Part shown: positions 21,278 to 24,843 of the stretch, in pieces
Layout: each line of letters opens with the position of its first letter
Position numbering within the stretch: position 1 is the first letter of the stretch
From: an uncultured Synergistales bacterium
GTDB lineage: Bacteria > Synergistota > Synergistia > Synergistales > Aminobacteriaceae
Direction of reading: 5' to 3'
Length of the DNA stretch: 44,045 bases
Assembly (NCBI GenBank): GCA_905233725.1
Contig: CAJOEM010000018.1
Span: 1-44,045, forward strand
Notes under the pieces: generated by a model
Databases searched by the model: none
What the model was told of the DNA's origin: nothing
The model's input: only the letters and a program-made list of their open reading frames with translations
Translations under genes and position numbers: made by a program

Positions 21278-21550
21278 ATGACAATTATCGAATGGCTGTT
21301 GCTGGGATTTTTGATAGTTTGTGCGATTGCGGCGTCGATGGCGAAGAACTTGCTAAATTCCGTGATTATATTCATGAGCTATAGTCTTGTTATGTCGGTG
21401 ATTTTTGTGCTGTTGCGTTCTCCGGATTTGGCGATGACTGAAGCAGCGCTTGGAGCAGGAGTTACGAGCATATTATTTTTTCTTGCATTACGAAAAGTCG
21501 GGCAAATGCATCACGAACACGAACACGAATCTGAATCTGGCAGCAAATAA
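21278..21550 (+). CDS. MbhD-like antiporter subunit (DUF4040)
   Basis: A 90-residue protein with three membrane segments, matching the MbhD/DUF4040 domain: MAKNLLNSVIIFMSYSLVMSVIFVLLRSPDLAMTEAALGAGVTSILFFLAL. In classic Mrp this segment is part of the large MnhA subunit; here it is a separate gene, as in Mbh-type complexes. It ends in an unusual HHEHEHESES tail that might bind metal. ATG directly abuts the mnhG stop, with GGAGG upstream. A 2.3-kb block of unrelated genes follows before the operon resumes. Confidence 0.88.
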   Translation: MTIIEWLLLGFLIVCAIAASMAKNLLNSVIIFMSYSLVMSVIFVLLRSPDLAMTEAALGAGVTSILFFLALRKVGQMHHEHEHESESGSK

Positions 21551-21571
21551 TTCACTGGAGGTTGATTTGAA

Positions 21572-22477
21572 ATGGAAACGTTCTCAGAAATATTTTGGGC
21601 AGGTGTGAAGAAATACTGCGTTCAAATTGTTGCTGCGTCGTTATTCGGCTTGACGTTGATAATATTCCCGGGATTGCGCCGTGTATTGGTGAAGTTCTCG
21701 GACTTCGTGAAAAATTCCCTGAGAAAATCCCCGGAGCAGAGAGAAAAATTTGTTCCTGTCAGTTCGGGAAATATCGAACGGAAACGTACCCACGTAGACA
21801 CTAACAGATTCTTATTCGGAATTATATTTGTCGTGTTCTTGTGTATTGTTCTCGCGCTATTGTTCAAATTCGGAGAAGATGCCTTAAAATTTATTTTCCC
21901 TCTATATTTTCTGTTGGCTATTCTGTTCGTGCCTTTGCAATTTCGTCCTGTCTCGAAAAACGAGATCGCAAAAGCTGAAACCGGCGACGCAGATTTACAA
22001 TATTCACTCGCTGAACATTATGCTGTGAAAGATCAGAATCGAAACGCTTACATGTGGTATTACGTTGCGACGATGTCTGGTCACAAATCGGCTGCGGAAA
22101 AATGCAAGAAACTCGAACGTAAGAAAAAAATTTCACCGTCAGAAGCTCTGGAAGCTCAGTCTGAAGCAGGGAAAATCTACGCGAAGATTCAGACACGTTT
22201 GAAGCTTGAATTTGAAAAATTTCGGGAATTGTCGATGAAGGGCGATTCTGTTGCGCAATATAATCTGGGTTGGATGTATCAGCACGGCGAACATGTTCAG
22301 CAGGATAATTTTCGTGCGTATGTCTGGTATTATCTCGCGGATTTATGCGGAGATGCTGCAGCAAATGCTCAACTCAAGCAATTCGCCGAAAAATTGTTCC
22401 CGTCACAAATCGAAGCTGCTCAGTCAGAAGCTCGTGAGAAATTCGCAGCTATCAAAAAATTTCTGGAGGTAAAGTAA
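21572..22477 (+). CDS. Membrane protein with Sel1-like repeats inserted in the antiporter operon
   Basis: A 301-residue protein. Residues about 10-35 and 82-135 are hydrophobic (one and about two membrane segments). Residues about 140-300 carry two Sel1-like repeats: ETGDADLQYSLAEHYA...AYMWYYVATMSGH and MKGDSVAQYNLGWMYQHGEHVQQDNFRAYVWYYLADLCGD. Each is followed by a helix with SEA-x-E/K residues. Sel1 repeats bind proteins. ATG 21572 behind GGAGG, and its stop overlaps the start of the Rpn-like gene by one base (TAATG). It is not a known antiporter subunit. Confidence 0.78.
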   Translation: METFSEIFWAGVKKYCVQIVAASLFGLTLIIFPGLRRVLVKFSDFVKNSLRKSPEQREKFVPVSSGNIERKRTHVDTNRFLFGIIFVVFLCIVLALLFKFGEDALKFIFPLYFLLAILFVPLQFRPVSKNEIAKAETGDADLQYSLAEHYAVKDQNRNAYMWYYVATMSGHKSAAEKCKKLERKKKISPSEALEAQSEAGKIYAKIQTRLKLEFEKFRELSMKGDSVAQYNLGWMYQHGEHVQQDNFRAYVWYYLADLCGDAAANAQLKQFAEKLFPSQIEAAQSEAREKFAAIKKFLEVK

Positions 22478-23409
22478 TGTGTGAAGAATTTGATCATGAT
22501 GCCTGGTGGAAACAATGTATCAGGAGATTTTTACCGGAGTTGGTTCTGAAGACTATTCCGGAGCTTTATAACGACGCAGATTTCACGATTGCGCCGAAAT
22601 TTTTGAGTCAGGAACTGCAGGACACTTTGCAAAATTCTGATGAGCATAAATCCTCGCTTTACGTTGATGAGCTTGTAGAGATTCAGTTAAAGACGGGTGA
22701 AGCTGAGTGGGTTTTGCTGCACATAGAAGTTCAGGGGAAAGGTAATCGTGATATTTCGTGGCGAATGATGCTGTACTGCTGTCTGATATTCGCGCATTAT
22801 CACAAGATGCCGATTGCCCTGGCGATTCTCACGCACAAACGCCCTAAACGCGAAATACCCGGAATTTACGAGTTCAACCAATACGGAACGCAACACAGAT
22901 ATGTTTATAATATTTTCGAAGTGTACGCTCAAAATGACAAAGAATTATTGAATGGCAATAACCCGTTTGATCCGATTATTTACGTTGCAAAGAAATTCAG
23001 GGATTACAACGGAAGCACGCGAGAGAAAGAGTTCAAGAAATTCTCGTACTTGAAAGAAGTCGCTGTGTTGCTGAATAACAGGGGCTGGAGCATTCAAGAT
23101 CGACGAGATATTTTGATGTTTGTTGGTCAGATAATCAGGCTCAGAGACGAGGAACTCAAGCTTGAATTTGAGAAATTTAATAGTAATTTGAGAGGAGAAA
23201 ACAAGATGCTGGAAAAATCTTTTATCGAGGAATGGATCGAGGAAAGCGAAAACAAAGCTTTTACGAAAGGACGTTCAGAAGGACGTTCAGAAGGGCGTTC
23301 GGAAGGACGTGCAGAAAATATGAACGCAGTTGTGGAGGCTTTGGCATCAAAAGGAATGTCACCAGATTTTATTGCGGAAATTAGGGAGATTTGCATGAAA
23401 AGATCTTAA
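22477..23409 (+). CDS. Rpn-family PD-(D/E)XK nuclease
   Basis: A 310-residue protein of the Rpn / PDDEXK transposase-like nuclease family. Residues 20-90 hold the nuclease core: Asp64 in VDELVEI, then Glu84-x-Gln86 in LLHIEVQGK. Residues about 125-215 contain YEFNQYGTQHRYVYN and FKKFSYLKEVAVLLNNRGWS, typical of the family. The last 67 residues form a separate module: EKSFIEEWIEESENKAF, then four Gly-Arg-Ser-Glu repeats, then a helical end with SPDFIAEIREI. Rpn proteins were first linked to recombination and, in E. coli, act as toxic anti-phage nucleases inhibited by a protein made from inside their own gene. ATG overlaps the Sel1 stop behind GGAGG. Confidence 0.85.
   Translation: MCEEFDHDAWWKQCIRRFLPELVLKTIPELYNDADFTIAPKFLSQELQDTLQNSDEHKSSLYVDELVEIQLKTGEAEWVLLHIEVQGKGNRDISWRMMLYCCLIFAHYHKMPIALAILTHKRPKREIPGIYEFNQYGTQHRYVYNIFEVYAQNDKELLNGNNPFDPIIYVAKKFRDYNGSTREKEFKKFSYLKEVAVLLNNRGWSIQDRRDILMFVGQIIRLRDEELKLEFEKFNSNLRGENKMLEKSFIEEWIEESENKAFTKGRSEGRSEGRSEGRAENMNAVVEALASKGMSPDFIAEIREICMKRS
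23206..23276 (+). repeat. 71-bp exact direct repeat, copy 1
   Basis: Identical base for base to 23450-23520. It begins at the internal ATG of the Rpn-like gene and ends in the first GRSE unit. Perfect identity with no silent change implies a very recent duplication or gene conversion. Confidence 0.95.
23206..23409 (+). CDS. Putative internal product: C-terminal module of the Rpn-like protein
   Basis: An in-frame ATG at 23206 (codon 244 of the Rpn-like gene) has a strong ribosome site, AGAGGAG (23191-23197), eight bases upstream. It would give a 67-residue protein, MLEKSFIEEW..., with the GRSE repeats and the helical end. The same module, with the same starting ATG, exists as a free-standing ORF at 23450. 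In E. coli rpn genes such an internal product blocks the full-length nuclease. Here that function is inference. Confidence 0.55.
   Translation: MLEKSFIEEWIEESENKAFTKGRSEGRSEGRSEGRAENMNAVVEALASKGMSPDFIAEIREICMKRS
23269..23316 (+). repeat. 12-bp tandem repeats coding Gly-Arg-Ser-Glu
   Basis: Four units of the form GGACGTTCAGAA with a few substitutions. The 12-bp period keeps the frame, so slippage would change the length of the linker and not switch the gene off. Related units recur at 23513-23548. Confidence 0.9.
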
Positions 23410-23449
23410 ATCTCATGAAATTGCGCGAAAGAAATTGAAGGATAGCGAG

Positions 23450-23520
23450 ATGCTGGAAAAATCTTTTATCGAGGAATGGATCGAGGAAAGCGAAAACAAA
23501 GCTTTTACGAAAGGACGTTC
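23450..23520 (+). repeat. 71-bp exact direct repeat, copy 2
   Basis: Copy of 23206-23276, offset by 244 bp. Recombination between the copies would swap the end of the nuclease gene for the tail 2 end and delete the DNA in between. Confidence 0.95.
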
Positions 23521-23620
23521 GGAGGGACGTGCAGAAGGACGTTCAGAAACTTTGGACGAGGTTGCCGCACTTTTGAAGCAGAAGGGAATATCGCCGGAAA
23601 TTATTTCTGAACTCAGGTAA
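23450..23620 (+). CDS. Free-standing copy of the Rpn C-terminal module (tail 2)
   Basis: A 56-residue ORF. Its first 23 residues are identical to the internal product of the upstream gene (MLEKSFIEEWIEESENKAF...). Three GRSE-type repeats follow, and then a different end, LDEVAALLKQKGISPEIISELR, related to the parent's end (SPDFIAEIREI). ATG 23450 has AAGGA about eight bases upstream; an ATG at 23435 adds five codons. No nuclease core is present. It may be an inhibitor of the Rpn nuclease or a spare tail for recombination. Confidence 0.6.
   Translation: MLEKSFIEEWIEESENKAFTKGRSEGRAEGRSETLDEVAALLKQKGISPEIISELR
23513..23548 (+). repeat. 12-bp tandem repeats in tail 2
   Basis: Three units of the GGACGTTCAGAA type, against four in the parent gene, so the unit number has already diverged. 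Confidence 0.88.
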
Positions 23621-23673
23621 GTTTGTTTAGGATCATGAAGATGTTCGCGTTCTAAGGATAGGAGAGGAAAAAA

Positions 23674-23892
23674 TTGTTAGATAAAGATGAAGGGCTACAA
23701 AAGTTAAAAGAAAAATGGAAAGATAATCAGAAAGTAACGTCATTTTTGGAATGGACTGAAGGTTATTTTCAGGGTTTCGATAGTGCTCGCTCACAAACCG
23801 TAGAAAAAATCACGGAGTTTTTGGCACAAAAGAACGTCTCACCGGAAATTATCGCGGAAGTTAAGAAAGCTTTTGGGGACGAGGAGGATTAA
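23674..23892 (+). CDS. Diverged Rpn-tail-like small protein (tail 3)
   Basis: A 72-residue ORF starting at TTG 23674 behind GGAGAGG (23661-23667). The C-terminal third, VEKITEFLAQKNVSPEIIAEVKKAF, aligns with the ends of the nuclease (VVEALASKGMSPDFIAEIREI) and tail 2 (VAALLKQKGISPEIISEL). The first two thirds (LKEKWKDNQKVTSFLEWTEGYFQGFDSARSQ) lack the repeats and are only loosely like the parent. It has its own ribosome site, and its last codons carry the GAGGAGG site of the next antiporter gene, so translation of the two is linked. Confidence 0.6.
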   Translation: MLDKDEGLQKLKEKWKDNQKVTSFLEWTEGYFQGFDSARSQTVEKITEFLAQKNVSPEIIAEVKKAFGDEED

Positions 23893-23898
23893 TTTATT

Positions 23899-24843
23899 TT
23901 GAATGAGGATTTGAGGATCATATGGCGAAATTTTTTCAACTGGGTGATGGGCAACGGCGCAAGACCTGAAAACGAAGAAATAATTCCCGAAGCTCCACCA
24001 GATTTGCCGTTCACTCAGAAACAGGAATCCAGAAATTCGCGCTTTCACGAGCTGACTTTACGTGAGAGATACTCGCACTGGCTGGAAATTCACGGATTGC
24101 ATTTGTTCTCGAACGTGTATTCCGGAATGAGCGTGTTGATTTGCGTTGTGATTGTGTTGTTGTTACTCGTAACTGTCGCGGAATTGCCGAAATTTGGCTC
24201 TGAGAATAATCCGGCAAATAACGAAGTCATGGAACGCTATATAAATTCCGGCGGCGAAGAAACTGGTGCGAAAAATATCGTCTCAGGAATGATTCTGGAT
24301 TATCGCGCGTTTGATACGTTCGGAGAATCTGCGCTGTTATTCACGGCTGCTGTAAGTGTGCTGATGTTGTTGGCTGTGTCACGTCGTGATTCAAAAAATT
24401 CCCCTGAACGTCTGCACAAATTCAGTCAGGACGATTCGATTTTGCGAGGCGTTGCGTTGCTTTCAATTCCTGTGATTGTTTTGCTTGGCTGCGTCGTGAT
24501 TTTGAACGGGCATTTGAAACCGGGCGGAGGATTTTCTGGAGGAGCGATTCTGAGCGCTGCGTTGATTTTTGCTGCGAATGCCTATGGCTTTGGGAGCGTG
24601 CATAAATTCTTCAGCGAGAGAAAATTCGTGATTATGATTTCTAGTGCGTTGATGATTTACGCGTTGTTGAATGCCTGGTCGTTTTTCACGGGAGCAAATG
24701 ATTTCGAAGCGTATATTTCCAAGGGCGCGATCGGAAATATTTTTAGTGCAGGGTTGATTCTGCCGCTGAATATATGCCTGAGCTTAATCGTCGCTGGGAT
24801 TCTTTACGGATTTTACGCGCTGTTCAGTGAGGAGGAAATTTAG
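23899..24843 (+). CDS. MbhE-MnhB fusion subunit of the Na+/H+ antiporter
   Basis: A 314-residue membrane protein. Residues 1-70 are hydrophilic and unlike other subunits. Residues about 75-165 are MbhE-like: a membrane segment, then TGAKNIVSGMILDYRAFDTFGESALLFTA. Residues about 190-310 are MnhB: a membrane segment, GHLKPGGGFSGGAILSAALI and three further segments. In classic Mrp the MbhE part belongs to MnhA. TTG 23899 uses GAGGAGG (23881-23887) that lies inside the preceding small ORF, 11 bases away. Confidence 0.86.
   Translation: MNEDLRIIWRNFFNWVMGNGARPENEEIIPEAPPDLPFTQKQESRNSRFHELTLRERYSHWLEIHGLHLFSNVYSGMSVLICVVIVLLLLVTVAELPKFGSENNPANNEVMERYINSGGEETGAKNIVSGMILDYRAFDTFGESALLFTAAVSVLMLLAVSRRDSKNSPERLHKFSQDDSILRGVALLSIPVIVLLGCVVILNGHLKPGGGFSGGAILSAALIFAANAYGFGSVHKFFSERKFVIMISSALMIYALLNAWSFFTGANDFEAYISKGAIGNIFSAGLILPLNICLSLIVAGILYGFYALFSEEEI

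Follow-up and report, generated by a model that had tools for sequence, protein, structure and literature searches.

Why would a nuclease-like gene contain a second start of its own and be followed by loose copies of its C-terminal end? The question arises in a 44,045-nucleotide stretch of DNA (the window) from a Synergistaceae genome, in which an initial annotation, made from the sequence alone, described an Rpn-like gene of this kind. The relatives named below are Synergistaceae as well, mostly ruminant gut genomes. A precedent comes from E. coli, in which a toxin, RpnL, and an intragenic antitoxin, RpnS, have been shown (Zhong et al. 2023; PMC10327210). There, binding of the tail protein to the long protein blocks both the DNase activity and the toxicity of the latter, a four-residue repeat was found to set specificity, and anti-phage activity was shown for RpnP2 (PMC10327210). 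Stand-alone RpnS copies lie downstream of rpnE (ypaA = rpnES) and of rpnC (rpnCS) (PMC10327210).

On the present evidence, the window locus is quite probably an Rpn-family toxin-antitoxin locus that has moved into a Na+/H+ antiporter (Mrp-type) operon, with RpnL, an intragenic RpnS and stand-alone RpnS paralogues. At its core this is known biology, found here in a new lineage, the Synergistaceae. What comparison adds is the conservation of the internal site, the recurrence of tail copies, a mismatch in repeat number between copies, and a mosaic four-copy array in one relative (L009). Toxicity, inhibition by RpnS, specificity set by repeat number and phage defence are taken over from the E. coli work; that the window locus is expressed and behaves like E. 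coli Rpn we infer by analogy, as we do the role of the spare copies. The features concerned are these:

21572..22477, + strand, Sel1-repeat membrane-type gene, the upstream neighbour; its stop overlaps the rpn start (TAATG)
22477..23409, + strand, rpn-like gene (putative RpnL), an ORF of 310 aa with an N-terminal PD-(D/E)XK-type nuclease domain and a C-terminal tail
23191..23197, + strand, predicted internal ribosome-binding site AGAGGAG; of 25 related rpn genes, 24 have a strong site at the equivalent position
23206..23409, + strand, intragenic RpnS-like ORF, 67 aa, equal to the nuclease tail, with GRSE-type four-residue repeats; it starts in a linker just before the long tail helix
23450..23620, + strand, tail copy 1, stand-alone, 56 aa if read from its ATG (another possible start, TTG at 23435, is also in frame); identical to the parent tail at first, then diverged
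23674..23892, + strand, tail copy 2, stand-alone and diverged, 72 aa from a TTG start; clearly similar only to the other two window tails
23899..24843, + strand, gene for an MnhB-like Na+/H+ antiporter subunit, bounding the inserted unit on the right; in relatives, Sel1 genes or nothing at all separate it from the mnhG-like gene, and rpn is absent there

The nuclease gene and its internal start

Judged from the neighbouring ORFs, the surroundings read as an Mrp-type Na+/H+ antiporter operon, and the name of the MnhB subunit comes from this context rather than from a family search. This setting is unlike that of the E. coli systems. In relatives, mnhB lies directly after the mnhG-like gene (L126, L137, L124 and L134), or Sel1 genes come after the mnhG-like gene (L121, L125, L128, L129 and L135). 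Among the relatives compared, only the window has rpn and both tails between the mnhG-like gene and mnhB (after Sel1), so both tails probably came with, or arose from, the window rpn gene. The gap between the mnhG-like and mnhB-like genes (21278-23899 in the window) holds varied Sel1-repeat genes in relatives, and seems to be a recurrent insertion site inside the antiporter operon. Consensus scans of the coding strand found no terminator-like site between rpn and mnhB and no promoter-like site inside rpn; by these scans, a separate internal promoter is therefore without support. An Rfam scan of the region gave no match.

The long product resembles the Rpn (YhgA-like) family, represented by the profiles TIGR01784 and PF04754 and by COG5464, in its domain order, its invariant D-E-Q residues and its C-terminal repeat tail. 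It differs in that the window protein itself scores below both curated cut-offs (18.1 versus 52.1 bits for TIGR01784, 16.1 versus 21 for PF04754). TIGR01784 is matched by 24 of 29 aligned members (E <= 0.001), and Fretibacterium fastidiosum L049 scores above its cut-off. D64, E84 and Q86 are invariant across the 29 aligned sequences, so the conserved acidic and ExQ residues of a PD-(D/E)XK-type fold are present. A predicted structure of the window protein (mean pLDDT 85.7) has an alpha-beta N-terminal domain. The best matches to its N-terminal part (about residues 1-155) were EndoMS/NucS nucleases, at a moderate Z of 7.6 and an rmsd of 3.1-3.5 over 104-108 residues, followed by other PD-(D/E)XK nucleases; these came from a second structural comparison, Foldseek alone having returned no significant match to the model. 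Searching solved structures by sequence with full-length and tail profiles gave no credible match (the RpnAS structure 7TH0 was absent from the results), PADLOC gave none for the window locus, and phage records contained no DNA match. The long product RpnL would be a PD-(D/E)XK-type DNase.

A separate 67-residue product had been predicted from an in-frame ATG at 23206 behind AGAGGAG, and this start is indeed present. It is preceded by gagAGGAGaaaacaag, whose anti-SD duplex (-9.1 kcal/mol) beats those of all 18 other in-frame start-type codons of rpn. In the structural model, the start corresponds to residue 244, within a low-confidence linker (about residues 240-248). A long helix (residues 249-291) follows directly and carries the four-residue repeats.

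We assessed conservation of this site in 25 rpn genes, 24 of the family and one of the same order. The aligned Met or Val at the tail boundary, which was chosen by eye from the alignment and may carry a small bias, has an SD of -7 or stronger in 24 of the 25 genes. For the other in-frame ATG, GTG and TTG codons of the same genes, the figure is 17 of 356 (4.8%; Fisher p 5e-26, nominal because the genes are related). Where Val occupies the position, it is encoded by GTG in 5 of 5 cases, versus 62 of 348 for other Val codons (p 2e-4, nominal for the same reason). The conserved SD and start codon point to an internal translation start, served by its own ribosome site, that would make the C-terminal tail. 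A second start within rpn would thus yield the tail alone (RpnS), which would pair with the tail of the nuclease and so keep the nuclease inactive.

Tail copies in the window and in relatives

The module at 23206 was described as repeated at 23450 with a different end, and comparison bears this out. Segments 23197-23304 and 23441-23548 are 93% identical, and the identity from the two ATGs is exact for 71 bp. Further downstream, the ends of the parent tail and of copy 1 are 62% identical in nucleotides (dS about 1.3), and copy 1 is one four-residue repeat short of the parent tail. In the upstream direction, identity extends only 2 bp beyond the ATGs; copy 1 therefore has its own, weaker SD (AAGGA, -5.5). 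The third ORF, at 23674, had been called a diverged tail with its own ribosome site. It has a good SD (-8.1) and proves to be a distant homologue of the other two tails (E 2e-5 and 3e-4, 29-33% identity). It is very diverged, and its function may be unrelated; a search of 61 genomes for a parent nuclease bearing this third tail found none. The similarity is more than chance: in the window, the downstream tail matches score 204 and 80 and no upstream or antisense control exceeds 46, and other genomes repeat the layout with sequences unrelated to these. Both ORFs are candidate stand-alone RpnS genes, that is, separate downstream tail homologues with start signals of their own, one clear with a weak SD (23450) and one distant with a good SD (23674).

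This arrangement is like that of E. coli rpnE/ypaA and rpnC/rpnCS, in which a nuclease gene with an internal tail start has a second, stand-alone tail gene directly downstream. The E. coli sequences are very remote, however, and spares number two in the window and three in L009 versus one in E. coli. In rpnE/ypaA, as in the window, the tails are near-identical in their first part and diverged at the end, and the repeat number of the spare is unlike that of the parent (+4 residues in K-12). The K-12 spare duplicates the ribosome site, whereas the window spare does not. K-12 ypaA (L140 5817-6002) is annotated as a pseudogene, yet it has an intact 61-residue frame with the duplicated ribosome site.

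Scanning up to 1.6 kb on both sides of each rpn gene, we found tail copies downstream, on the coding strand, at 18 of about 75 Synergistaceae rpn loci: 11 of 25 within the genus, plus 7 of about 50 from the other genera of the family. The largest number seen was in L009, with three spares in a row. Antisense control scores were low save at one locus (76). Three loci (L113, L193 and L201) had tail matches upstream, which we take to be further rpn-like sequence. At about 30 loci examined in other phyla, no tail copy exceeded the threshold.

Three further observations concern the relatives. In many relatives (L003, L013-L018, L024 and L025), rpn, with or without a spare, is immediately followed by one and the same HAD-type hydrolase gene (MKLIFLDIDGTLT); the site is common to them and the tails vary. 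At L024 2418-2939, the downstream tail ORF resembles a fusion of three successive C-terminal tail modules into one 173-residue protein. Genomes G050, G051, G092 and G055, from other Synergistaceae genera, each hold more than 20 rpn-like matches, several of them clustered.

Repeat number in parent and spare tails

The first tail helix carries four-residue repeats of variable number. Of the 17 Synergistaceae pairs that could be scored, 15 have spare and nuclease tails of unequal length, the difference being a multiple of four residues each time (all 17: -4, 0, -4, -12, -8, +8, -12, +4, -4, +4, 0, +4, -4, +36, -8, -4 and +4 residues; L024 and L006, fused or cut, were excluded). For E. coli rpnE, all eight distinct sampled pairs are unequal (+4, -16, -12, +12, -28, -16, -16 and -8 residues). 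Pooled, 23 of 25 pairs differ, all differences being multiples of four, although short-read assemblies may hide or lose exactly equal copies; this caution weighs less for E. coli, whose records count as complete genomes. The spares of E. coli rpnC also differ in length from the nuclease's tail, but not by clean multiples of four. In L176 and L179, the blocks compared outside the repeat, among them 60 bp of upstream sequence, are identical between parent and spare in every nucleotide, yet the repeat numbers differ by nine and two, respectively. Four-residue repeats whose number changes specificity are also found in EcoR124I/EcoR124II (TAEL repeats; cited in PMC10327210), a different protein with a different role, likened to Rpn by the behaviour of its repeats and not by sequence.

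In E. coli, RpnCS with one added repeat no longer counters RpnCLS (PMC10327210). Together with the mismatch in most pairs, this predicts that spares are unfit for the neighbouring nuclease, with the functional effect of a mismatch known for one case, RpnC with a single added repeat. Repeat arrays mutate fast, and the mismatch need not be selected; fast mutation alone could produce the pattern. With the observed E. coli lengths, equal repeat numbers would be rare by chance. The initial annotation had proposed a nuclease, its intragenic inhibitor and one or two duplicated inhibitors. Homology, conservation of the internal start and the published E. coli case all lend good support to this set of genes. 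It is doubtful that the duplicates would block the window nuclease, as spares nearly always differ from the parent in repeat number and one extra repeat abolished neutralisation in RpnC.

These data bear on what the spare tails are. They could be ordinary extra doses of the same antitoxin, giving a tighter hold on the nuclease, with repeat differences tolerated. The start of spare 1, identical to the parent tail over 71 bp, would suit such a role, and the E. coli spare RpnES is produced (PMC10327210). But mismatched repeat numbers in 23 of the 25 scored pairs, and the loss of RpnC neutralisation upon addition of one repeat (PMC10327210), make this a possibility to which we give only limited credence. 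Slightly less credible still is that the spares are functionless, decaying debris of tandem duplication and repeat slippage. Some duplicates are indeed very young (no differences outside the repeats), copy number is patchy, and longer partial duplications occur at L109, L168 and L187. Yet the scored spares are open frames whose starts coincide with the internal start or lie close to it, and most have a ribosome site; among solo copies, amino-acid changes are fewer than silent ones (pooled p 0.004); and the E. coli spare has been detected in published work. The tails are rich in G, R, E and S repeats, but a 93% DNA repeat with 71 bp exact, a ribosome site conserved across 25 genes and directional controls that are nearly all low make a chance internal ATG and chance likeness among low-complexity tails most improbable.

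We return to the two tail genes 3' of rpn as putative stand-alone RpnS paralogues. Because spare tails differ from the parent's in the four-residue repeat helix, they most likely serve as antitoxins with a different specificity, directed at other or earlier alleles of the nuclease, and possibly also as tail donors in gene conversion; most likely they are not simple extra doses of the same inhibitor.

Exchange among tails and its possible role

The initial annotation had offered, as its other option, a cassette array for swapping tails by recombination, and had called for a comparison across related genomes. Only two of the window's copies are similar enough to be compared, and they form a two-copy mosaic, which does not by itself show swapping: 71 identical bases, then sharp divergence. 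The K-12 rpnE/ypaA pair shows identity and then divergence in much the same way. Direct sequence support for swapping comes from the L009 array, which comprises the nuclease tail and three spares. At 15 informative sites its copies split two against two, and these sites form three successive blocks, each with a pairing of its own (p 4e-5). This mosaic is most simply explained if the copies have exchanged sequence with one another, the 3' end of the nuclease gene among them.

A fuller reading, which we put forward tentatively and as a whole, is that of an expressed array of specificity cassettes. Each downstream tail would encode an antitoxin of different repeat length, unfit for the current nuclease. 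Gene conversion would copy a cassette into the 3' end of the nuclease gene, so that toxin and intragenic antitoxin change together, and the product of the donor would already be there to restrain the newly made toxin. If true, such an array would provide a standing repertoire for toxin-antitoxin allele switching, and immunity to sister alleles.

Two results deserve to be followed, the mismatch in repeat number and the signature of exchange, and either may have a function. The purpose of the small downstream Rpn copies, and the cause of their repeat variation, now become a direct question for co-expression. The locus extends the intragenic-antitoxin system with stand-alone antitoxins to the Synergistaceae, and the comparison suggests a regularity common to this family and E. 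coli: spare antitoxins rarely match the neighbouring toxin in the repeat that sets specificity.
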